Source: Deltaproteobacteria bacterium
GTDB lineage: Bacteria > Myxococcota_A > Polyangia > Polyangiales > JADJMO01
Assembly (NCBI GenBank): GCA_022843175.1
Contig: JALHOE010000067.1
Coordinates: forward strand, 1-40,655
Direction: 5' to 3'
Length of the DNA stretch: 40,655 nucleotides
Shown: piece by piece, positions 1,462 to 39,082 of the stretch
Numbering within the stretch: the first letter of the stretch is position 1
How the letters are laid out: each line of letters starts with the position of its first letter
Made by a program: the position numbers and the translations under genes
Notes under the pieces: generated by a model
Told to the model about the DNA's origin: nothing
What the model saw: only the letters and a program-made list of their open reading frames with translations
The model's database searches: none

Positions 1462-2544
1462 TCAGCGGCGGCGACGCAGCAGCGCGAGCGCAGCGAGGCC
1501 GAGACCGAAGCCGAGCAACGGCGCACGGGTGGGGCTCGTGCTGCAGCCGGCGCCTCCGCCGTCCGTCGCGGGGTCGGTCGCGTTGTTCTGCGCCGGCGGC
1601 TCGGTCGTACCCGGCGGGCAGTCGACGTACGTCGTGTGGTACTCGGTCTCGCGCTGCTCGGCCGGCGGCACGAGCTTCAGCTGCACGTCCTCGCTGTCCG
1701 CCTCGCTGAACCACACGCTGAGCTTGGTGAGGCGATCGCCCTTCGCCGCGAGGCCCGCGAGCGACGGCACGTCGGCGTCGGCGATCGCGCCGCCGAACTG
1801 CTGCTTGCGCGAGTAGCCATCGGCGCTCGCGAAGCCGACCTGCTCCTTGCCCTCGGTGATCGCGAACACGCGCCACGAGAAGCCGGACGCCTTGGCCGCG
1901 GTCGCCATCTTCGAGGGGACGATCGGCGCGGGGGTCTTGAACGAGAGCTTGATCGGTCCGAGCGACTTGCACGGCGTGGTGCCGGTCGGCACCGCCCCCT
2001 GCGACACCTTGAACGCGACGAAGAACCACTTCTTCGCGACGTAGTGGTCGAAGGTCGCCTTGGCCCGGGCGTCGTAGGGATACCCGTTGGCGTCGAGCCA
2101 GCTCGTGAACGACGCCTCGTCCTTCGCCTCGAGCTGGACCCAATCGAGGAACCCGACGGTCCCGCTCGCCACGACGGTGGTGCCGCCCGAGGTGCCGGGC
2201 GCGCCGGCGTCCGTCGAGAAGTCGTTGCCGCGCGTGCGACACTCCGTGCGCTCGACGATCTTCGGCTGGCTGATCCGCTCGGCTCCGCCGAACGCCCGCG
2301 CCTCGGCGAGCGCGGGCTCGCTGGTGAGCATCGACGGGACCGGGAGGATGACGCCGAAGTTCTCCGCCGCGCCGCAGAACGTGGGCTGGAAGACGTAGGT
2401 CTCCACCCCGGCCTTGTGCACGAGGATGATGTCCTGGTTCGGATCGACGTTCATGCCCGGGCCGAACGGCGCGCCGCACGGGAGGGCGGCGGGCGCAGCG
2501 AAGAGCGTGGCGGCGGCGAGACCGAGAGAGAGCAGCTTGTTCAC
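1462..2544 (-). CDS. DUF2330 exported protein with MYXO-CTERM-like tail
   Basis: A 360-residue secreted protein of the DUF2330 type: a signal peptide (MNKLLSLGLAAATLF...), then C23 in LPCGAPFGPG, then the family-like segment with DIILVHKAGVETYVFQP and FGVILPVPS. The C-terminus has the three parts of a MYXO-CTERM sorting signal: a Gly/Cys motif (GAGCS), a hydrophobic stretch (LLGFGLGLAALALL) and a terminal RRRR. In myxobacteria such tails are thought to anchor proteins at the cell surface. The start is GTG 2544, behind GGAGGTG at good spacing. The frame stays open far upstream, but that part is antisense to the SUMF1-like gene's coding pattern and is not used. The start overlaps the stop of the upstream gene as GTGA, which implies translational coupling. 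Biochemical function is unknown. Confidence 0.83.
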   Translation of the reverse strand: MNKLLSLGLAAATLFAAPAALPCGAPFGPGMNVDPNQDIILVHKAGVETYVFQPTFCGAAENFGVILPVPSMLTSEPALAEARAFGGAERISQPKIVERTECRTRGNDFSTDAGAPGTSGGTTVVASGTVGFLDWVQLEAKDEASFTSWLDANGYPYDARAKATFDHYVAKKWFFVAFKVSQGAVPTGTTPCKSLGPIKLSFKTPAPIVPSKMATAAKASGFSWRVFAITEGKEQVGFASADGYSRKQQFGGAIADADVPSLAGLAAKGDRLTKLSVWFSEADSEDVQLKLVPPAEQRETEYHTTYVDCPPGTTEPPAQNNATDPATDGGGAGCSTSPTRAPLLGFGLGLAALALLRRRR

Positions 2545-3521
2545 GACGCACCTCCGTACACGCAACGGAATCCGACGTTCGGCGCCCACGAGTCCGGGAG
2601 CTCCGCCTTGCGGCAGGTCGTGCGGAGCGAGCTCGCCCCGCTGACCCAACAACCGCCGCGCATCACGCGCAGCTTGCCCGTAGAGGGCCCCTTGGGATCC
2701 TGCGCGGGGCTCTTCGCGTAGAAGCCGGGGTCGTAGTAGTCCGCGGTCCACTCCCAGACGTTGCCGGCCATGTCCATCGCGCCGTAGGGGCTCGCGCCGG
2801 CCTCGCGCCGCCCGACGAGGTCGGTGTCGCCGACGCAGCCGCTGAAGTTCGCCTTGCTGCAGTCCGCGGCGCCGTTGCCCCACGGATAGGTGCGCGGTCC
2901 CTCGGTCCCCTTCGCCGCGCGCTCCCACTCGGCCTCGGTCGGGAGCCGTCCACCGGCGTACGAGCAGTATGCGCTCGCCTGCGACCACGAGACGAAGATG
3001 ACCGGATAGTCGGCGAACCTTGCGTCGGTGAAATACTGCGGACGGAGCTTCGACGACGACAGCGAGGGCGGCGTGCACCGACCCGCCGTGACGCACGCGG
3101 CGTACTTGGAGTTGGTGACCTCGTAGCGATCCATCTCGAAGGCCGCGCCGCTCACGGTGTGCACCGGCTTCTCGTCGGGCGCGCCGTCGTCGGCGCCCAT
3201 GCCGAACGTCCCCGCGGGCACCTTCACCCGCGCGGGGTTGAGCTTCGGCGCCGCGCACGACGGAGCTTCGTCGGCCAGCGCGTTGCAATTGTTGTCCTTG
3301 AAGTCGCACACCTCGACGGCGCCGGGGTGTACGCCCGGATCGTGGTCGTTGCAGTCGGGGCCCTTGCTGCATCCCTGGCCGTAGCCGTCGCCGTCCTCGT
3401 CGAGACAGCTCGCGGACGCGGGCGTGGGTGCGGCGGTCGCGGGGCGATCGCGGAGGAGCGCGGCGCCGGTCACGGCACCGGCGGACAACAGGGCGAGGGC
3501 GAGGAGGGGGAGGTTTCTCAT
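2541..3521 (-). CDS. SUMF1/FGE-like exported protein with MopE-type motif
   Basis: A 326-residue protein starting MRNLPLLALALL, a signal peptide. Residues about 39-85 hold a MopE-type motif (DEDGDGYG, DCNDHDPGVHPGA, DNNCNALADE), a Ca/Cu-binding repeat common in secreted delta-proteobacterial proteins. From about residue 100 comes a full SUMF1 (formylglycine-generating enzyme-like) domain: VPAGTFGMG, EMDRYEVTN, RLPTEAEWERAA, YPWGN, AGNVWEWT, VMRGGCW and GFRCVYGG. Of the FGE cysteine pair only the one in LRTTC is obvious; the other position reads Ser. It may therefore be a binding or scaffold domain rather than an active FGE. I chose ATG 3521 because it begins the signal peptide; the frame continues 15 codons further up. 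It is the first gene of a two-gene operon with the DUF2330 protein. Confidence 0.85.
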   Translation of the reverse strand: MRNLPLLALALLSAGAVTGAALLRDRPATAAPTPASASCLDEDGDGYGQGCSKGPDCNDHDPGVHPGAVEVCDFKDNNCNALADEAPSCAAPKLNPARVKVPAGTFGMGADDGAPDEKPVHTVSGAAFEMDRYEVTNSKYAACVTAGRCTPPSLSSSKLRPQYFTDARFADYPVIFVSWSQASAYCSYAGGRLPTEAEWERAAKGTEGPRTYPWGNGAADCSKANFSGCVGDTDLVGRREAGASPYGAMDMAGNVWEWTADYYDPGFYAKSPAQDPKGPSTGKLRVMRGGCWVSGASSLRTTCRKAELPDSWAPNVGFRCVYGGAS

Positions 3522-26887: not shown

Positions 26888-29800
26888 ATGTCTCGCTTCG
26901 CTTCTTGGCTCGGGCCCGATCTCGCCTTCGCCCTCAAGAACACCGCCATCGCGGCCGGTTTCCTCGCCGCGGCCAACGCGTGTGGCGGCGGAGGCTGCGG
27001 GAGCAGCTGCGCAGGCTCGAGCGTCATCCCGGGCGGTTTCAACAAGGAGATGCGCGTCACGAACGCTGCGGGCGTTCGCATCACGCGCCCCGGTCTCGAC
27101 TTCCTCGAGAAGAACCTGCCGACGGTGATCCAGAAGGTCCTCGAGGGCGGCGGCAGCGCCGTGAAGGACGGGATCATGACCTTCGAGATCGGCGAGTCGA
27201 AGGGCTCCACGAAGATCCTCTTCTTCGACATCAACTACACGATCTGCCCCGGCGGCCCGAAGCCCACCGACAAGCCGCCGAAGTGCGTCGTCGAGCTCAA
27301 CATCGCCAAGATCTCGGCGATCAAGATCGACTCGGTCACGCCGAAGAACCTCAAGGTCCACGCCCGCATCCCGATCCGGCTCCAGCGCCTCGGCATCACC
27401 GCGAGCGTCATCGGCAACGTCGAGGCGACGCTCGGCAAGCCGCCGGTCGACTGCGGCGCGGTCAACTTCCAGGACGTCGACATGGACGTCGACATCGCGC
27501 TCGAGGAGATCCCCAACGACGCGACGCACGCGGTCCGCGCGGGCTACACCAAGATCAACATCGACCCGTCCAAGTTCAAGTTCAACGAGACCCAGGTCAA
27601 GGACGGCTTCAAGTTCTGCGGCAGCGGCTTCAACGACACGATCGCCAACTGGTTCAAAGACCTCATCGCCGGAATGATCGTCGGCCAGATGGGCTCGCAG
27701 CTCGCGAAGCCCCTCTCCGACGCGACGTGCATGAAGGCGCAGAAGCTCCCCGACGGCAGCGAGCAGTGCCCGACCGGCACGTTCAACAAGAGCGGCACCT
27801 GTCGCTACACCGACAAGGCCGACGGCGAGTGCGTGCCGATGCTCCTCGGCATCGAGTCGCGCTTCGACCTGAGCGGCCTGCTCGCGTCGATGTCGCCAGG
27901 GACCAGCGGCGGCCTCGACTTCATGCTCGCGAGCGGCGGCAACATGACCCCCGCGCCGAGCACCGGCGCGACGGTCAACGGCGTCACGCTCAACATGCTC
28001 GGCGGCGCGCAGCCCACCGAGGTGAGCAGCTGCGTCCCCAAGGTCGACAACCCGCTCCCGATGGGGCTCCTCCTGCCCGACGTGCTCTCCGCCAACGAGG
28101 TCCCGGACTGGAAGGGCACCTCGCCGCCGCACCTCGGCATCGGCCTCGCCGAGAAGTACCTCAACCACGCCGCCACCGGCGCCTACAACTCCGGCGCGTT
28201 CTGCATCGGCATCTCGAGCGAGCAGATCAACCAGCTCAACGCCGGTCTGTTCTCGCTCCTCCTGCCCTCGATCCGCGGCATCTCCGACAAGTTCAACCCC
28301 GGTGAGACCTCGCCGGCGATGGCGCTCGCCATCCGGCCGCAGAAGGCGCCGAACATCACCGTCGGCGACAACACCGCGGACTTCACGAGCCCGCTCCTCG
28401 ACCTCCAGCTCAAGGACACCGATCTCGACTTCTACATGTGGTCGCACGACCGGTTCATCCGCATGTTCACCGGCCGGATCGACATCAAGGTGCCGATCAA
28501 CCTCGAGGCCGGCAAAGAGGGCATCGGCCTCAAGTTCCCGCCGAAGAACCCGCTCTCCTTCACCAACCCGCGCATCAGCAACAACACGCTGCTGCTCGAG
28601 AAGGACGCGCAGGTCGGCAAGCTCGTCGAGTCGATCGGCGGTCTGATCCCCGCGTCCACGTTCTCGAACATCAAGCCGATCAAGCTCGACTCGGCGCTCG
28701 CGTCGTACGGCCTCAAGCTCACCATCCCCGAGGGCGGCATCCGCAAGGTGCTCAAGGGAGAGGAGCGTTGGCTCGGCATCTTCGCCTATCTCGAGCCGGC
28801 CACCGCGGCGATCCCGGCCACCAAGACGTTCGCGCAGATCGTCAAGACCGACATCGACCCGAAGAACTTCGACCTCGCCACCGTCGGCGACGCGCCGCCC
28901 AAGGTGCTCGTGCACGCCTCGGCCGCCGAGGACAACGGCAGCAACAAGGTCGAGTACGCGTATCGCGTCGACAAGGGCCTCTACACCACGTTCTTCCCCG
29001 AGCGCGATTTCACGGTCACCTCGCCGTTCTTCGTCCTCCAGGGCAAGCACACGATCCAGGTCGTGTCGCGCATCGTCGGCCGCCCCGAGAGCGAGAGCGA
29101 GCCGGTCAACCTGCCGGTCGTCATCGACGTGCTCGCCCCGGTGATCCGGGTGAAGAGCGACGTCGCCGGTGTGGTGACGATCCTCGCGTCCGACATCGTC
29201 AGCAAGGGCTCTGACCTCCAGGTCGAGGCTCGCGTCGACGGCGGCGCCTGGATCCCGGTCCCGCTCGTCGACAACAAGCGCATCGTCAGCGTCCCGCTCG
29301 AGGGCACGCAGATCGAGGTCCGCGCCACCGACGAGGGCGGCAACGTCGCCTCGACCAGCTCCGCCCTGATCCGCGGCCGCGCCGACAGCACGGTCCCCGG
29401 CGGGTCGGGCTGCGGCTGCTCGGTCCCCGGCAACGACACCACCTCCACCACCGGCGCGGTCTTCGGCGTGCTGGCCGTCGTCGGCGCGGTGCTCGAGCGT
29501 CGTAGGCGCCGCGCGCGCGAGGTCGCGGCGGCTTCATTATTGGTCGCAGCGAGCGGCGCGAGCGGCTGCACCTGCGCGGGCGGCGGCGAGGACGACGCGC
29601 AGATCACCTGCAACAGCAAGCCCGACCTCGTCCCGTACGTGATCGGCTCCCACACCAGCGTCGCCGTCGCCGGCGACGGCACCGTCTGGGTCGCGGGCTA
29701 CGGCGAGGGCGATCCCTCGGGCGGCAGCTCCGACGACTTCCAGGGCGATCTCGTGATCGGCAAGTACAACAAGGAGAAGGGCGCGGTCGACTGGCAGGTC

Positions 29801-31063
29801 GCCGACGGCGTGCCCGCTCCGCAAGAGGGCACCGAGCTCTCGTTCAACAACTGCGGCTACCGCGGCGGCGTGAGCGATCCCGGCGACGACGTCGGCCAGT
29901 ACACCTCGATGGTGCTCGACTCGGGCGGCAGCCCGATCGTCGCGTACTTCGACCGCACCGGCGGCCAGCTCAAGGTCGCGCGACCCAACGGTAAGAAGTG
30001 GGGCACGCACGTCATCGAGACCCAGGCCAAGGGCTGGGCCGGCAAGTTCACCTCGATGGTGCTCGTCTCCGGCAAGCCGGTGATCGCCTATCAGACCCTC
30101 GAGGCGGGCAGCGGCGGCTACGCGAAGGCGCGGGTCCGCCTCGCCAAGTCGCAGACCGAGCAGCCGAGCAGCCAGGGCGACTGGTCGCTCGAGGACGTCG
30201 CCGTCGACGAGAAAGCGCCCTGTATCCAGGCGATCTGCGGCGCGGGGCAGAAGTGCCTCAACGGCGACAGCGCCGCGATGATCGAGCCGGTCTGCACCGC
30301 CACCGTCTCCGGCTGCATGCCGGTGTGCGGCGACGGCGAAGCGTGCGTGAAGAACAAAGACGGCGCCGTGTCGTGCCAGAAGACGCGCGCCCAGCTCGGC
30401 ATCTACGTCAACGCGCTCGGCGCGGGCCTCTCGCTCGCCGCCTCGTCGTCCGGCGAGCTCGGCGTCGTGTTCTACGACCGCTTCCACGGCAACCTCCGCG
30501 CGTCGTCCAACAAGGGCGGCAAGTGGACGACGACGCCCACCACGGCGCCGCTCGACGGCTGGACCGGCGACGTCACCAAGAACAAGCTCACCGGCGACCG
30601 CGGCTTCAGCCCCAACCTGGCGATCGACTCCACCGGCAATTGGCACGTGGTCTACGGCGACGGCATCAAGGAGTGGCTGCTCTACAAGTTCGTGCCCGGT
30701 GGCGACGTCACCAAGGCAGCGCCCGCGGTCGCCATCGACGACGGCACGAGCGCCGACGGCAGCGCGTCCAACAAGTTCACCGACGGCCAGCACGTCGTGG
30801 GCGAGAACGCGCACATCGTCGCGGACGGCAGCAACCTCAAGATCGTCTACCAGGACTCCACCGCCGGCACGCTGCGGTGGGCCAAGGGCCCGGGCGGCCC
30901 GACGGCGAAGTTCACCCGGGGCGTCATCAAGCAGGACGGGTTCGCCGGCTTCTGGCCGCGCATCGTCGGCGGTGAGGCGTTCAACTTCTTCCGCATGAAG
31001 GGCGAGACCAACGGCGGCGATCCGGTCATCCTCGGCAACGTGCGCTCGGTCGCGCTGCCGTGA
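26888..31063 (+). CDS. Composite MYXO-CTERM protein + beta-propeller lipoprotein, one frame
   Basis: One uninterrupted 1391-codon frame, started at ATG 26888 behind GGGAGGACTCC. It opens with a lipoprotein-like signal (hydrophobic to residue 31, AANAC with C32, then CGGGGCGSSC). Residues about 45-830 form a large secreted region of unknown family. At 842-873 there is a full MYXO-CTERM-like tail: GCGCS (C842, C844), a hydrophobic run (AVFGVLAVVGAVLE) and RRRRR. Directly after come VAAASLLVAASGASGC (lipobox, C894) and a second exported domain of Asp/Gly-rich propeller-like repeats (VAVAGDGTVWVAGY, MVLDSGGSPIVAYFDR, LAIDSTGNWHVVYGD, IVADGSNLKIVYQD) with a Cys cluster at about 1110-1165. It may be a true fusion, or two proteins with an internal GTG start at 29489. 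Confidence 0.75.
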   Translation: MSRFASWLGPDLAFALKNTAIAAGFLAAANACGGGGCGSSCAGSSVIPGGFNKEMRVTNAAGVRITRPGLDFLEKNLPTVIQKVLEGGGSAVKDGIMTFEIGESKGSTKILFFDINYTICPGGPKPTDKPPKCVVELNIAKISAIKIDSVTPKNLKVHARIPIRLQRLGITASVIGNVEATLGKPPVDCGAVNFQDVDMDVDIALEEIPNDATHAVRAGYTKINIDPSKFKFNETQVKDGFKFCGSGFNDTIANWFKDLIAGMIVGQMGSQLAKPLSDATCMKAQKLPDGSEQCPTGTFNKSGTCRYTDKADGECVPMLLGIESRFDLSGLLASMSPGTSGGLDFMLASGGNMTPAPSTGATVNGVTLNMLGGAQPTEVSSCVPKVDNPLPMGLLLPDVLSANEVPDWKGTSPPHLGIGLAEKYLNHAATGAYNSGAFCIGISSEQINQLNAGLFSLLLPSIRGISDKFNPGETSPAMALAIRPQKAPNITVGDNTADFTSPLLDLQLKDTDLDFYMWSHDRFIRMFTGRIDIKVPINLEAGKEGIGLKFPPKNPLSFTNPRISNNTLLLEKDAQVGKLVESIGGLIPASTFSNIKPIKLDSALASYGLKLTIPEGGIRKVLKGEERWLGIFAYLEPATAAIPATKTFAQIVKTDIDPKNFDLATVGDAPPKVLVHASAAEDNGSNKVEYAYRVDKGLYTTFFPERDFTVTSPFFVLQGKHTIQVVSRIVGRPESESEPVNLPVVIDVLAPVIRVKSDVAGVVTILASDIVSKGSDLQVEARVDGGAWIPVPLVDNKRIVSVPLEGTQIEVRATDEGGNVASTSSALIRGRADSTVPGGSGCGCSVPGNDTTSTTGAVFGVLAVVGAVLERRRRRAREVAAASLLVAASGASGCTCAGGGEDDAQITCNSKPDLVPYVIGSHTSVAVAGDGTVWVAGYGEGDPSGGSSDDFQGDLVIGKYNKEKGAVDWQVADGVPAPQEGTELSFNNCGYRGGVSDPGDDVGQYTSMVLDSGGSPIVAYFDRTGGQLKVARPNGKKWGTHVIETQAKGWAGKFTSMVLVSGKPVIAYQTLEAGSGGYAKARVRLAKSQTEQPSSQGDWSLEDVAVDEKAPCIQAICGAGQKCLNGDSAAMIEPVCTATVSGCMPVCGDGEACVKNKDGAVSCQKTRAQLGIYVNALGAGLSLAASSSGELGVVFYDRFHGNLRASSNKGGKWTTTPTTAPLDGWTGDVTKNKLTGDRGFSPNLAIDSTGNWHVVYGDGIKEWLLYKFVPGGDVTKAAPAVAIDDGTSADGSASNKFTDGQHVVGENAHIVADGSNLKIVYQDSTAGTLRWAKGPGGPTAKFTRGVIKQDGFAGFWPRIVGGEAFNFFRMKGETNGGDPVILGNVRSVALP
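29489..31063 (+). other. Possible in-frame internal lipoprotein start
   Basis: If translation began at GTG 29489, the product would be a 524-residue lipoprotein with an ideal signal: n-region LERRRRRARE, h-region VAAASLLVAASGA, lipobox ASGC. No Shine-Dalgarno is visible before it, and no stop separates it from the first protein. The h-region contains TCA TTA TTG, codons rare in this GC-rich sequence. Confidence 0.35.
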
Positions 31064-33236: not shown

Positions 33237-35135
33237 CTACTTGAGCATGTCCTTGAGGAGATCGTCCTCGCCGGCCGGCGCGGAGCCGGAGGGGGCGGGA
33301 GCCGCGGAGCCTGACGGCGCGGCCGAGGCCGAGCCGCCGCCCAGCATCGACTTGAGGAGCTCGTCCTCGTCGACGCCCGAGGGATCGCCGCTCCCCGCGG
33401 GAGCTGCGCTGCCCGCGGGCGACGGCGGAGCAACGCCATTCTTCGCGTTGCAGCGGCTCTTGTTCGCGGACCACCGCTGCGACCACGGCGTCCCGCAGAC
33501 CTCGTCGCGGAACTTGTCCTTCCATGCGTTCTGCACGCACGTCTTCTCGAAGGCCTTCACGCAGTAGTTCTGGTAGTCGGCGTCGTCGCTGTCGTTGGTG
33601 GACGCGGCGAGGCAGTGCACGAGCTCGCTGCGGCCGTCGCACGGCTTGCGGTTGAGCGGATCGCTCTGCACGCACTGCAAGCGGTCGTATTCGAACGTGG
33701 GACGCTCGCAGTCCTCGATCGACTTGAGATCCTTGAGCCGCTCCGTCTCGACCTGCTTCTCGAGCAGGAAGGTGGAGATGCGTGGGATGTACGTGACGAG
33801 CCCGAGGCAGATCACGAGCAGGCCCACGAATGGCAAGACGATCTTGTAGAGCGAGACGACCGGCCGCTCGAAGCGGAAGCTCGAGATGTACAGGTTGAGC
33901 CCGAGCGGCGGGCACACGTACGCGATCTCGAGGTTGAGGAGGAAGATCATCCCGAGGTGGAACGGGTTCATCCGGAACGTCGTCGCGATCGGGATGATCA
34001 GCGGGACCGACACGAGGATGGCGGAGAACCCGTCCATCAGCATGCCGATGACGAGCAGGAAGATGTTGAGCCCGATGAGGAACTTCCACGACGTGTCGAG
34101 CGACGTGTGCGTCTCGAGCCAGTGCAGGAGGTGCTCCGGCACGCGCACGAAGTCGACGTAGTTCATCAGCGAGTTCGCCATCGCGAGGATCAGGATGACC
34201 GCTCCGGCGAGCGACATGCTGTTGCGCGCGATGCGCGGGAGATCCTTCTTGAGGTCGAGGTCCTTGTAGACCCACACCTCGACGACCAGCGTGTAGAGCG
34301 CGGTGATCGCGGCCGACTCGTCGAGGCCGGTGAAGCCGGTGGCGAGGCCGCCGAGGATGATCACCGGGACGAAGAGCTCCCACTTGATGAGCCACAGCGA
34401 AGCGCCCATCTCCTTGAGATCGAGCGGCGTCGTCGGGAGCTTGGTCTTGATGCCGACGTAGGCGCTGTAGATGCCGAGCACCACCATGACGAGGAAGCCG
34501 GGGAGCAGGCCCGCCTTGAACGTCTCGTTGATCGGGACCGCGGCGACGAGGGAGTAGACGAGGATCGGCAGCGACGGCGGCAGGAGCAGACCGAGGGAGC
34601 CGCCGGTGGTGACGAGGCCGAGCGAGAACTCGTCGGGGTATTTCTGCTGGCGAAGCGCCGGGTAGAGGAGGCCGCCGATGGCGACGATGGTGACGCCGCT
34701 CGCGCCGGTGAGCGTGGTGAAGAACGCGCTCGCGCAGATGCAGACGATCGCCAGACCGCCCGGCATCCAGCCGAAGAACGCGCGCGACGCGCGCACGATG
34801 CGCTCGGGCGTCTTCGACTCGGCCATGAGGTAGCCGACGAAGGTGAAGAGCGGGATGGTGACGAGGATCGGCGAGCCCGCGAACTTGTCCTGGAGGACAT
34901 CGCCGGCGATGAAGCGCACGAATTGGCGCGTCGGGTCGTCGATCGTGACCCAGGCGAAGGCGGCGCCGCCGCCCATGATCGCGAACAGCGGGATGCCGAG
35001 GAACGCGAGGAGGACGAACGCACCGGCGGTGCGGCCGAAGACCAGGAGGAGGATCGCGACCAGCGCGGCGATGCCCTTGGGGATCGGTCCGAGCTTCGGC
35101 GTGATGTCCTTCGGCGTGGAGGCGGGGCCGCTCAT
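33237..35135 (-). CDS. dctM: TRAP transporter large permease with Cys-rich tail
   Basis: A 632-residue DctM-type permease, about 200 residues longer than usual. The membrane part (to about 458) has the standard phrases GIPLFAIMGG, SPILVTIPLFTFVGYLM, TGASGVTIVAIGGLLYP, GGSLGLLLPPSLPILVYS, ATGFTGLDESAAITALYTL, MDGFSAILVSVPLIIPIA and EIAYVCPPLGLNLY, forming the ion-coupled transport channel. The extra 174 residues hold eight cysteines (476, 488, 499, 508, 525, 533, 547, 562), a Ser/Ala/Pro/Gly linker and two copies of an acidic motif (DEDELLKSML 589-598; EDDLLKDMLK at the end). Disulfide potential suggests the tail is periplasmic. The ATG overlaps the dctQ stop as ATGA. Confidence 0.9.
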   Translation of the reverse strand: MSGPASTPKDITPKLGPIPKGIAALVAILLLVFGRTAGAFVLLAFLGIPLFAIMGGGAAFAWVTIDDPTRQFVRFIAGDVLQDKFAGSPILVTIPLFTFVGYLMAESKTPERIVRASRAFFGWMPGGLAIVCICASAFFTTLTGASGVTIVAIGGLLYPALRQQKYPDEFSLGLVTTGGSLGLLLPPSLPILVYSLVAAVPINETFKAGLLPGFLVMVVLGIYSAYVGIKTKLPTTPLDLKEMGASLWLIKWELFVPVIILGGLATGFTGLDESAAITALYTLVVEVWVYKDLDLKKDLPRIARNSMSLAGAVILILAMANSLMNYVDFVRVPEHLLHWLETHTSLDTSWKFLIGLNIFLLVIGMLMDGFSAILVSVPLIIPIATTFRMNPFHLGMIFLLNLEIAYVCPPLGLNLYISSFRFERPVVSLYKIVLPFVGLLVICLGLVTYIPRISTFLLEKQVETERLKDLKSIEDCERPTFEYDRLQCVQSDPLNRKPCDGRSELVHCLAASTNDSDDADYQNYCVKAFEKTCVQNAWKDKFRDEVCGTPWSQRWSANKSRCNAKNGVAPPSPAGSAAPAGSGDPSGVDEDELLKSMLGGGSASAAPSGSAAPAPSGSAPAGEDDLLKDMLK

Positions 35136-36808
35136 CCCTTGCCTCCCTTCTTCTTCTCGTCGTCCTTGATCTTGTTCTGCTGCTCGATGAGCTCCTGCGC
35201 GCGCGCGAGCTCGGAGAGGTCACCGACGAGGGTGCGCTCTTCCTCCTCTTCGGCGGCGATCTTCTCGGCGATCTCGAGCCGCTGCGCGGTGGGCACTTCG
35301 GGTGGGATCGACGACTTGCGAGCGGGTGGATCGCTCGCCTTCTTCTCGGTGGCCGGCACCGAGGCCCACGAGTCGAGCGGCGGCTCGGACTTCTTGGTGG
35401 GCTCCTTCGGCGCGTCGGACACGTCCCTGACCTCGTGGTGCGGACGCTCGCCGCCGAGATCCTTGGCGCGGTTGTCGGCGTCCTCGGCGCCGGCGTCGAC
35501 CTTGGCCTTGGACGCCGAGAGCGCGTCGAGGGCGTTGGTGTCGTCCGCCGGGAGCGCGTCCTGCCCGACGTGCGCCCTCGCCTCCTGGTCGACCCGGGTC
35601 TCGACGATCGGCGGCTCGACGGCGGTGTCGCCTCCGTGCATCGGCGCGTCGGCGCCGTGCGCGGCGTTGGGATCGGTCGACACCGCGCCGCCGAGTGCGA
35701 GGGCGCCGCGAAGGAGGAAGCGCAGACCGATCATGAGGAAGCCCCACGGGAAGATCAGCGAGAGGTCGGCCTCGAGCGGCGTGCGGTCGTCGGGCTCGGG
35801 CGCGGTCGCGAGCGGAGCGCGCGTGCCCGTGCCGTCGCCGACGTCGCACGCGCCGGTGAGGCGCCAATCGGGGTTGATGCTGCCGCCCTTGGCGCCGAGG
35901 TCCTCGATCTCCTTCGGGGTGAGGCACGGCTTGGCCGGATAGGGAACGGCGGGAGCCGGCGTGCCGGCGGCCGGAGCGGTGGGCGGATAGACGTCGGCCC
36001 AACCCTTCTCGTTGAGCTCCTGGTTCCACTCCGCGCCCGTGTACCACTTGTCGAACGGCTTCCCGTTGATGACCACATTGCCGAAGCTGCGGATGTCGAG
36101 CGCGAGCTGACGCCGCACGAGGAACGTGTGCCGGCCCACCGACTTGGAGACGAAGGCGATCTTCTCGCCCTTGGTCGAGGTCTTGGCCGCGCCGAAGCGG
36201 GTGATCGCGAGGTAGTCGACGAAGCCCCAGGCGATGACGAAACAGGCGAACGCCGAGACAATATAACCAAACAATGCAACGATCAGGCGCGGGCGCGGAC
36301 CGATGAACCGCATGACCACGTCGATGTTGATCTGCCGGCCGGCGCCGGTGGCGAGGGAGCCGCCGAGCAGCGCGACCCAGATCGTGAACAAGCGGGCGGA
36401 GACGATCTGCGGCGTGCCCATCTGCTTGATGAGCGACGCGTCGGCGAGCCAGCGCGAGACGTTGGCGAAGTAGTCGTGCTTCTTGGCGACGAGGAGGAGC
36501 AGCACGCCGGCGGCGAACAGCACGCCGGGGACGATCAGCTTCTTCGGGAGTCGCTCGCGCGCGGGGATGCGCGTCCACGACGCGGCCGACGCGAGCCCCG
36601 CGAACGTGAGGATGATGCCGGGGAAGTTCGCGAGCTTGCCGCCCTTGGTGTGGAACGCATTGAGCGTGACCCACCCGGTCATGTAGAGGATCGCGGCGAT
36701 CAATACGCCGAGGACCAAGTACGTCTCGATCTTCGTCCAGACCGCGTCGAGCCTCACGAGCGGCTTCGTCCAGCGCGCGGGCTGACCCTCAGCGGGGCGA
36801 GCTTCCAT
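35132..36808 (-). CDS. dctQ: TRAP transporter small permease, greatly enlarged
   Basis: A 558-residue protein; ordinary DctQ proteins are about 160-220. The DctQ core is recognisable: an N-terminal membrane helix (28-50), GGSLATGAGRQINIDVV with the following amphipathic segment (149-172), and a helix at 175-200. Two additional hydrophobic stretches (61-79, 90-108) lie between the first and second core helices. A 150-residue hydrophilic insertion (201-350, with C295 and C321) separates the last two membrane segments. A charged tail (375-558) ends in a Glu/Lys-rich helix (AEEEEERTLVGDLSEL...). The start ATG 36808 has no clear Shine-Dalgarno. DctQ pairs with DctM; here both have extra domains, perhaps contacting each other or the TPR partner. 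Confidence 0.82.
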   Translation of the reverse strand: MEARPAEGQPARWTKPLVRLDAVWTKIETYLVLGVLIAAILYMTGWVTLNAFHTKGGKLANFPGIILTFAGLASAASWTRIPARERLPKKLIVPGVLFAAGVLLLLVAKKHDYFANVSRWLADASLIKQMGTPQIVSARLFTIWVALLGGSLATGAGRQINIDVVMRFIGPRPRLIVALFGYIVSAFACFVIAWGFVDYLAITRFGAAKTSTKGEKIAFVSKSVGRHTFLVRRQLALDIRSFGNVVINGKPFDKWYTGAEWNQELNEKGWADVYPPTAPAAGTPAPAVPYPAKPCLTPKEIEDLGAKGGSINPDWRLTGACDVGDGTGTRAPLATAPEPDDRTPLEADLSLIFPWGFLMIGLRFLLRGALALGGAVSTDPNAAHGADAPMHGGDTAVEPPIVETRVDQEARAHVGQDALPADDTNALDALSASKAKVDAGAEDADNRAKDLGGERPHHEVRDVSDAPKEPTKKSEPPLDSWASVPATEKKASDPPARKSSIPPEVPTAQRLEIAEKIAAEEEEERTLVGDLSELARAQELIEQQNKIKDDEKKKGGKG

Positions 36809-36846
36809 CGTGCGCGAGGGTATCAGGCGCGCACGACGCATCGGGA

Positions 36847-36886
36847 CAAAACAACGAGCCCCCCACCAAGGAGCGGCGAGGGGCTC
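36847..36886 (-). terminator. Intrinsic terminator/attenuator between dctP and dctQ
   Basis: On the minus strand GAGCCCC (36886-36880) pairs with GGGGCTC (36862-36856) and is followed by GTTGTTTTG. It lies 32 bases after the dctP stop and about 48 before the dctQ start. Partial termination here would yield more binding protein than membrane subunits. Confidence 0.7.
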
Positions 36887-36917
36887 GAAAGCGGCGAGCG
36901 CCGCGGTTTCCGGGAAA

Positions 36918-37934
36918 CTACGGGTTGGCGGCCGCCGTCGACTCGATCTTGCCGACCAGGGCCGGGTCGAAGGTGCCGGCCTTGAGCGCGTCGCGCGAGG
37001 CCTTGAAGATCGCATCCCACTTGGAAACGTCGTCCGCGGTGGGCTTGTAGATCGTGACGCCGGTGCGGCTCTTGAAGCGGGTCCAGGCCGCCGCGTCCTC
37101 GTTGCGAATGCGCTGTTTGAGGCCGGTGGACGACTCGGCCATGACCTTGCCGGTGTCGATCACGGCCTGCTTCTGGTCGCCCGGGAGCTTGTCGAGCGAG
37201 TCGGTGGACATGACGAGACCACCGACGACGATGCCGTTGACCTGGTCGACCGCGTTGTCGAACTTGCTGTTCCACTGGAGCATCTCGGCCGCGAGGGCGG
37301 AGACGCTCATGCAGTTGATCTTGCCGTTGTCGATGTTGGGGAGCACCGACATGAGCTCGGCCGGGAACGGGTTCACGCCGCCGATCTTGCCGTAGACCGT
37401 CTTGAGGATCGGGTCCTCGGCGTAGACCCACGGGCTCTTGCCCTTGACGTCGTCGGGGACGTGGACGGCGAAGCCCTTGCTCAGGAAGTGCGACTGGCCG
37501 ACGTCCGCCCAGGCGATGGGGGTGAACTTCTTCTCGGTGAGGAACTTGTCGTAGTCGGCCTGGATCGCGCCGCGGACCGCGTCGACGGCCTTCCAGGAGC
37601 GGATCGCGCCGGGGACCTGGATGGCGAGGAGGCGTTTGTCGATCTTGCCGAGACCGACGGAGGTGACCGCGGCGCCGTCGAGCTGGCCCGCCTTCATCTT
37701 GTCGATCATCGTCGATTCGGTGCCCTGGGTGCTGTTGAAGAAGAAGTCGAACGAGACCGCGTTGTTGGTCTTCGTCTCGACGGCCTTCTTCCAGGTCTTG
37801 AAGACCTGACCCCACGGCGAATCCGGCGCGGCGGGCGTGCCGACCTTCAGCTTGGTCTGCGCGTTGGCGCTGCCAGCCGAGAGCGCGAGGAGCGCGGCGG
37901 CCGCGCTGACACCAATAAGGACCTTACGAACCAT
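36918..37934 (-). CDS. dctP: TRAP transporter substrate-binding protein
   Basis: A 338-residue periplasmic protein with signal peptide MVRKVLIGVSAAAALLALSA, cleaved after SANA before QTKLKVG. The DctP fold is seen from KVGTPAAPDSPWGQVFKTW through MIDKMKAGQLDGAAVTSVGLG, RSWKAVDAVRGAI, GINPFP-like GGVNPFPAELMSVL, and VVGGLVMSTDSLDKL. It captures the substrate and delivers it to DctQM. Ligand identity is not readable. A strong Shine-Dalgarno (GAGGAGGAG, seven bases upstream) fixes ATG 37934. It is followed by the attenuator and then dctQ, and preceded 164 bp upstream by the TatT lipoprotein gene on the same strand. Confidence 0.92.
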   Translation of the reverse strand: MVRKVLIGVSAAAALLALSAGSANAQTKLKVGTPAAPDSPWGQVFKTWKKAVETKTNNAVSFDFFFNSTQGTESTMIDKMKAGQLDGAAVTSVGLGKIDKRLLAIQVPGAIRSWKAVDAVRGAIQADYDKFLTEKKFTPIAWADVGQSHFLSKGFAVHVPDDVKGKSPWVYAEDPILKTVYGKIGGVNPFPAELMSVLPNIDNGKINCMSVSALAAEMLQWNSKFDNAVDQVNGIVVGGLVMSTDSLDKLPGDQKQAVIDTGKVMAESSTGLKQRIRNEDAAAWTRFKSRTGVTIYKPTADDVSKWDAIFKASRDALKAGTFDPALVGKIESTAAANP

Positions 37935-38098
37935 CTGACTCCTCCTCACGAGATGAAACAGCCCCGCGTCGTAGGACGGGCGGCAGCGTTCCTTCTTCAA
38001 ACGACTGCCGCTGCACGGCGGGAACGACGGGGCGGCAGGCTAGCGCGAACACAGCTGTGCGCGAAGACTAACGCGATGCGTCACCAGGACGCGAGGGC

Positions 38099-39082
38099 TC
38101 ACAGCTCCCAGCCGCAATCCTCGCGGGCCACGTCCTCGATCCACTTCTTGCTCGTGTAGCGGCGCGCCTTGCGCTTGGCGATCGCGTTGGTGAGTCGCGC
38201 CTCGGGGAGCGGATCGTCGGCCTCGAGCACCTCGTTGAGGAGCTTCATGTACATGTCGAACGAGGCTTTGCGGCCGGGCGACTCGTCGTGCATGCGGCAG
38301 GCGTAGCTGCGCGCCATCTGCACCCTGCCGAGCAGGACCTTACCGCCGTTGATCTGGAAGGCCTTGTCGAAGTGCGCCTTGGCCTTGTCGAACGACTCCT
38401 GGCCGAGCGTGTTGAAGCCGGTGCGCGCGTAGTAGGAAGCGAGGATGACGTGACCCGAGCCGCGCTCGATGCCGTCGTTGAGCTCGACGGCGCGCTCGAC
38501 GAACGTGCGGCCGATGAACACCTGACCGATCGCGCCGATGTCGCCCTTGTCGACGTTCACGCGCGACATCCACGCCTGACCGGTCCAGAAGAGGAAGTCG
38601 GCGTCCTCCTCGTCGGTGAACTTCTTGACGTACTCCTGAATCTCTTTCTCGGAGCCGTGCTTGATCGCCTCGTGGATGCCGGCGTTCTTCGACTCCATCC
38701 ACTCGAGGCCGTAGTTCACCGAGCGGGTGTACATGCTCTTGGCGCGAGCGCGGTGGTAGGCGATCTGGTCGTCGTCGCCGGCGAGGATCGCCTGCTCGAG
38801 GTCGTCCTCGACGAACGCGAAGGCGAGCGAGGCCCAGCCGCGAATCAAGAGGTAGTAGGCGTTGTCGTCGTCGGGCACGAGCATGTGCATGCCCTCGAAC
38901 TGCGCGATGCCCGCCGAGGCGGCGATGCGCGCGGTCTCGAAGTCCGCCGTCGTCTGGAAGGCCGCCGAGCCCTCGCGGGTCGACTTGATCTGACCCTTGG
39001 CCAACGTCTTCTTGATGCAGCCCGAGCTCGCGAGCGCGGCGCCGAGGACGAGCGGAAGTGCCAGACGAGAGAGGAGGCTCAT
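38099..39082 (-). CDS. tatT: TatT-type TPR lipoprotein of TRAP transporter
   Basis: A 327-residue lipoprotein (MSLLSRLALPLVLGAALASSGC, lipobox Cys 22) built almost wholly of alpha-helical repeats: ARIAASAGIAQFEGMHMLVPDDDNAYYLLIRG, YTRSVNYGLEW, DFLFWTGQAWMSRVN, VERAVELNDGIERGSGHVILASYYAR and AKAHFDKAFQINGGKVLLGRVQMARSYA. This is the pattern of TatT, the trimeric tetratricopeptide partner of a TRAP binding protein described in Treponema pallidum (Tp0956 with Tp0957). Its position in front of dctP-dctQ-dctM supports a TPAT-type transporter for possibly hydrophobic ligands. The start is ATG 39082. Confidence 0.88.
   Translation of the reverse strand: MSLLSRLALPLVLGAALASSGCIKKTLAKGQIKSTREGSAAFQTTADFETARIAASAGIAQFEGMHMLVPDDDNAYYLLIRGWASLAFAFVEDDLEQAILAGDDDQIAYHRARAKSMYTRSVNYGLEWMESKNAGIHEAIKHGSEKEIQEYVKKFTDEEDADFLFWTGQAWMSRVNVDKGDIGAIGQVFIGRTFVERAVELNDGIERGSGHVILASYYARTGFNTLGQESFDKAKAHFDKAFQINGGKVLLGRVQMARSYACRMHDESPGRKASFDMYMKLLNEVLEADDPLPEARLTNAIAKRKARRYTSKKWIEDVAREDCGWEL

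Follow-up and report, generated by a model that had tools for sequence, protein, structure and literature searches.

Can a single open reading frame in a bacterial genome yield two surface proteins, each sorted by a signal of its own? This question is raised by a frame in the window, that is, the whole stretch of 40,655 nucleotides that was analysed. The frame (26888..31063, plus strand, as are all of its parts described below) runs from the ATG at 26888 to the stop at 31063 through 1391 codons without interruption, and it encodes a product of 1391 amino acids. An N-terminal signal peptide with a lipobox-like C32 (AANAC; 26888..26983) was assigned by comparison with the N-termini of relatives, nearly all of which have a clearer lipobox, for example, LVASC or LIAGC. 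It is followed by an exported N-terminal half of approximately 800 residues (26984..29401).

A MYXO-CTERM motif lies in the interior of the protein, at residues 839-875 (29402..29512). The NCBIfam model for this motif, TIGR03901, scored 25.2 bits against the whole protein and 30.8 bits against the 90-residue hinge on its own, with a cut-off of 20. The layout of the motif is complete: the cysteines C842/C844 (29411-29419), a transmembrane helix recognized from sequence and hydropathy (TM1, residues 856-869, 29453..29494) and the arginines R871-R875 (29498-29512). The Arg cluster extends to R877 (29498..29518), and it is also the n-region of a second signal, which comprises the hydrophobic run TM2 (residues 879-893) and the lipobox-like C894 (ASGC; together 29522..29569, with the codon of C894 at 29567-29569). 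The Arg block is common to the two signals, since one cytoplasmic basic stretch ends TM1 and begins TM2. Neither signal stands where it is usually found: the tag is not C-terminal, because 497 residues lie beyond C894, and the second signal is internal, not N-terminal as in ordinary lipoproteins. The exported C-terminal half counted from C894 has 498 residues (29567..31060). The preliminary description had reported a 1391-codon frame in which an internal MYXO-CTERM motif is followed by a lipobox-like C894, and this was confirmed by the open frame, by the TIGR03901 score and by 97 relatives of the same order with the same arrangement. In the hinge region of relatives (29567-29575 in the window), a further cysteine is usually found two residues after the first one of the second signal (GCxC), a pattern that mirrors GCGC in the MYXO-CTERM motif.

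The identity of the two halves was studied by Pfam, NCBIfam and PDB profile searches, which gave weak matches only and placed neither half confidently in a family. For the N-terminal half, Pfam gave a weak match to LBP/BPI/CETP (TULIP) for two members out of 44, the best E being 0.0043, and none for the window protein. The C-terminal half is beta-propeller-like according to weak family matches, namely BNR_4 in 9 of 45 members (best E 1.8e-4) and RCC1_2 in 8 of 45, with none for the window protein. AlphaFold models built from one or two sequences had pLDDT values of 39 (for the C-terminal half) and 34, too poor for a fold search. Elsewhere in the window, a DUF2330 protein with its own terminal MYXO-CTERM tail is encoded at 1462-3372 (minus strand), and TRAP transporter genes (DctM, DctQ and the T-component, TAtT) are located downstream on the opposite strand, at 33237-39082 (minus strand).

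Of 183 genomes searched in the same order, 136 had matches to the protein. Among the loci fetched from this order, 97 frames covered both halves without a stop, with identities down to approximately 30%, and in two cases the halves were split. It had been considered that relatives might always encode two separate genes; this was not the case. In an alignment of 27 hinges the mean column identity was 28%, and invariance was confined to an Arg-Gly pair upstream of the tag, to the first cysteine of the MYXO-CTERM motif (C842) and to the Gly-Cys in the second signal (G893, C894). Junctions were parsed in 95 fused frames; two others, which read CGSC and so fall outside the CxC pattern, were left out. 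A cluster of at least three R/K residues and a second hydrophobic run were present in 95/95 parsed junctions, and the same number had the full layout of a lipoprotein signal (basic n-region, h-region, small residue, Cys). The second cysteine was preceded by Gly in 91 of them and by Ala in 4. Many relatives have a longer Arg-rich linker, and in the parsed junctions the second cysteine comes 10-24 residues after the last basic one. Position -3 of the lipobox is variable in the family, with A, F, S, T or W instead of L, and the N-terminal signals of split relatives are just as loose at this position.

Beyond the order, a profile of the C-terminal half matched genomes of other classes; with the same order included, the phylum had matches in 96 of 235 genomes. 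Twenty loci from outside the order were fetched, 18 of them picked for a long frame and two (L265 and L266) for short frames. All 18 long-frame loci were fused and contained the cysteine, TM1, the basic stretch, TM2 and the second cysteine; because they were picked by length, they indicate that the hinge is widespread and give no estimate of its frequency. The fusion is real and conserved, within the same order as well as among the loci sampled from other parts of the phylum.

The two split loci were examined together with paralogues consisting of the N-terminal half only. In locus L085, the N-terminal gene ends in RRRSSRRDARTKAVK directly before its stop, and the C-terminal gene starts from an ATG that overlaps with it in a different frame, MNARTCLVGALALTLAGVANPGCSCG. 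In locus L110, it is a GTG that overlaps with the stop (MNRTKLFLFSVASFAGVFQGCDCG), and the tail of the N-terminal gene is weaker, with one cysteine (SSSCATRT) instead of CxC. In both cases the N-terminal half ends in a MYXO-CTERM-type tail, and the C-terminal halves start in the manner of ordinary lipoproteins, with MNARTCLVGALALTLAGVANPGC or MNRTKLFLFSVASFAGVFQGC. The N-only paralogues stop directly behind the MYXO-CTERM tail. In these cases, the hinge is resolved by splitting or truncation into one ordinary signal or two. An approximate tree of N-terminal halves (FastTree) had fused genes to either side of the midpoint root, with each of the two splits nested on its own and the N-only paralogues in six places; since the root was not inferred, this tree does not prove the direction of change. 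Group f20 (L265 and L266) has the halves as two adjacent genes, both of which begin like lipoproteins. Because its N-terminal gene has no MYXO-CTERM tail, the tag is dispensable when the halves are separate.

The same hinge was found in unrelated proteins when MYXO-CTERM tails were inspected one at a time, covering 64 matches in the source genome and 70 of 81 in a second genome. Nearly all of the 64 matches end no more than approximately 32 residues past the Arg cluster. Three tags of the source genome have more than 100 residues beyond them and in every case lead straight into a lipobox-like signal: those of the window gene, of a 1113-residue protein (containing ARRRFAALAVTLVGCSSP) and of a subtilase-like protein (containing RRRRALCVALALTGCGSPG). 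In the second genome, such a continuation was observed for 2 of the 70 inspected tags, both of which reach a lipobox and belong to orthologues of the window family and of the 1113-residue family. Taken together, 5/5 tails with more than 100 residues beyond them in the two genomes reach a lipobox. The 1113-residue protein (L212:2333-5674, minus strand) is unrelated to the window protein, and its MYXO-CTERM/lipobox hinge reads ARRRFAALAVTLVGC. Its family (P0002) shows the fused hinge in roughly a dozen genomes, and in at least three other genomes the family is split into a MYXO-CTERM protein and a lipoprotein, two of the second genes beginning MKRLCVLAVSVLLAAC and MKRTDWLAVVLACSLVSAC. In the third protein (L187:34-1662, plus strand), which we take from our own reading of its sequence to be subtilase-like, the MYXO-CTERM motif is followed by RRRRALCVALALTGC and then by approximately 110 residues; the relatives found for it were confined to genomes of the same taxonomic family.

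Because the hinge is conserved across myxobacteria, the gene probably encodes a precursor from which two surface proteins are cut. We hold with moderate confidence that this polyprotein-like precursor is cut by the myxosortase MrtC and by LspA. The N-terminal half would be exported by Sec, and TM1 would halt transfer and leave the Arg cluster on the cytoplasmic side. TM2, oriented N-in as a lipoprotein signal peptide is, would then resume export; as the second signal would need this reset of orientation, TM1 would be required in the fused form. Processing of the cysteine before TM1 by a myxosortase, presumably MrtC here, would leave the N-terminal half anchored by its C-terminal cysteine, and lipidation of C894 by Lgt and cleavage by LspA would release the C-terminal half as a lipoprotein. 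The TM1-Arg-TM2 hairpin would be discarded, and the two products would arise in a 1:1 ratio. MrtC is encoded in the source genome (L139; NF040594, 266.9 bits, cut-off 195), and Lgt and LspA are taken as present, as in other Gram-negative bacteria. The MYXO-CTERM score above the cut-off, the 97 fused frames of the order, the invariant C842, G893 and C894, the ordinary signals of the split and N-only forms, the similar splits of the P0002 family, the 5/5 long tails that reach a lipobox, the encoded MrtC and the published cleavage by MrtX speak for such a precursor. The loose -3 position of the lipobox, the putative anchoring (as opposed to cleavage) named in a related NCBIfam model, which the window protein matches below its cut-off, and the untagged N-terminal genes of group f20 speak against it. 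Whether a hairpin of MYXO-CTERM and lipoprotein signals with a common Arg block, excised by myxosortase and LspA to give two surface proteins 1:1, is a general myxobacterial module for encoding polyproteins, built more than once in unrelated pairs, is in our judgement about evenly balanced.

Among the alternatives, the one that survives best, although we consider it unlikely, is a permanent anchor, in which the TM1-Arg-TM2 hairpin stays, its cysteines are possibly lipidated and the halves are kept joined as a single protein, both on the same face of the membrane. It is favoured by the NCBIfam model lipo-invert, a TM-RRRR-TM-Cys module whose name refers to putative C-terminal anchoring; by locus L147, in which this layout precedes a short Ig-like end; and by the weak match of the window protein to this model, which 15 of the 27 hinges match at E<=0.1. 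However, a plain hairpin would need neither the MYXO-CTERM cysteine nor the Gly-Cys at its far end, and both are invariant, and the splits and N-only paralogues fall into the two known signals. Somewhat less probable still is the use of one site, such that either myxosortase cuts, leaving the hairpin on the C-terminal half, or LspA cuts, leaving the MYXO-CTERM hairpin on the N-terminal half. Consistent with this, only a C-terminal tag is cut in published work (PMC11980579), and processing of an internal lipobox by LspA was not found in the literature searched; however, both cysteines are equally conserved, and the C-terminal half is a standalone lipoprotein where the genes are split.

The preliminary description had offered two interpretations, a fusion that is processed to yield two surface proteins and has one Arg block common to both signals, and a nested lipoprotein gene started at an internal GTG (V868, 29489..29491). 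The former is the better supported, its cleavage steps being deduced; the latter was not upheld. Although the product of this GTG, MLERRRRRAREVAAASLLVAASGASGC, would have a plausible signal peptide, in-frame start codons made up 5.7% of junction codons vs 5.0% in random segments, and they were not found at a conserved position; in 10 of the 95 parsed junctions, in-frame ATG, GTG and TTG were absent. A Shine-Dalgarno (SD)-like sequence, defined as at least 5/6 matches to AGGAGG upstream of the start, was present at 1/97 junctions and in 2/97 random segments vs 62/97 true N-termini. Because start codons were not enriched and SD-like sequences were nearly absent from the junctions, the GTG was judged not to be a start, and internal initiation near it is very improbable. 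Loss of a stop or a change of frame through a sequencing or assembly error, conceivable in a draft genome of 470 contigs, can be dismissed, since a lost stop would not recur in 97 genomes and since GC3 holds steady at 0.8-1.0 throughout the junction, so that the coding signal is continuous.

Polyproteins are rare in bacteria. If the precursor reading is true, a conserved polyprotein cut at two known sorting signals would provide a simple assay of myxosortase on an internal substrate and a test of LspA on an internal signal, and it would show how fused genes hold two surface proteins at equal dose. Annotation pipelines may overlook the second mature protein.

The shared MYXO-CTERM/lipobox hinge, its conservation and its recurrence were not found in the literature searched, and a search on lipo-invert, midcut-by-XrtH and bacterial polyprotein precedents gave nothing useful. 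We know of no polyprotein with a sorting tag and a lipobox on one basic block. A bacterial polyprotein cut by signal peptidase is the cytochrome b/c1 precursor FbcH of Bradyrhizobium, which, like the window protein, holds two exported or membrane proteins in one frame but depends on other enzymes and signals. With bacterial lipoproteins, the substrates of Lgt and LspA, the second signal shares the basic n-region, h-region, small residue and cysteine, whereas their signal is N-terminal. The lipo-invert model (NF058595) likewise combines a transmembrane segment, an Arg cluster, a hydrophobic run and a cysteine, but the window protein scored 13.7-16 bits against it (residues 853-901) with a cut-off of 37, and its membership in this family was rejected. 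Among 140 genomes of the phylum, L147 was the only match over this cut-off; unlike the window protein, it has no MYXO-CTERM cysteine and its C-terminal part is short. The two designs may be related.

In Myxococcus xanthus, MrtX cleaves MYXO-CTERM tails, and the cysteines of the motif are required (PMC11980579). The window protein resembles the substrates of MrtX and MrtC in its cysteine motif, transmembrane helix, Arg cluster and score above the cut-off, and MrtC is present in the genome; it differs in that its motif lies mid-protein, with a lipobox signal and then another exported half behind it. Internal MYXO-CTERM motifs do occur in rare cases, for which processing was proposed, and MXAN_5598 of M. 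xanthus was proposed to be a gene fusion with a processed N-terminal part (PMC11980579). MXAN_5598 is like the window protein in its internal motif and in the proposed fusion and processing, but its second part is an outer-membrane barrel with an OmpA domain, and a lipobox on a common Arg block was not described for it. MYXO-CTERM and lipoprotein signals are already known; the new part is the hinge that they share and its repeated use.
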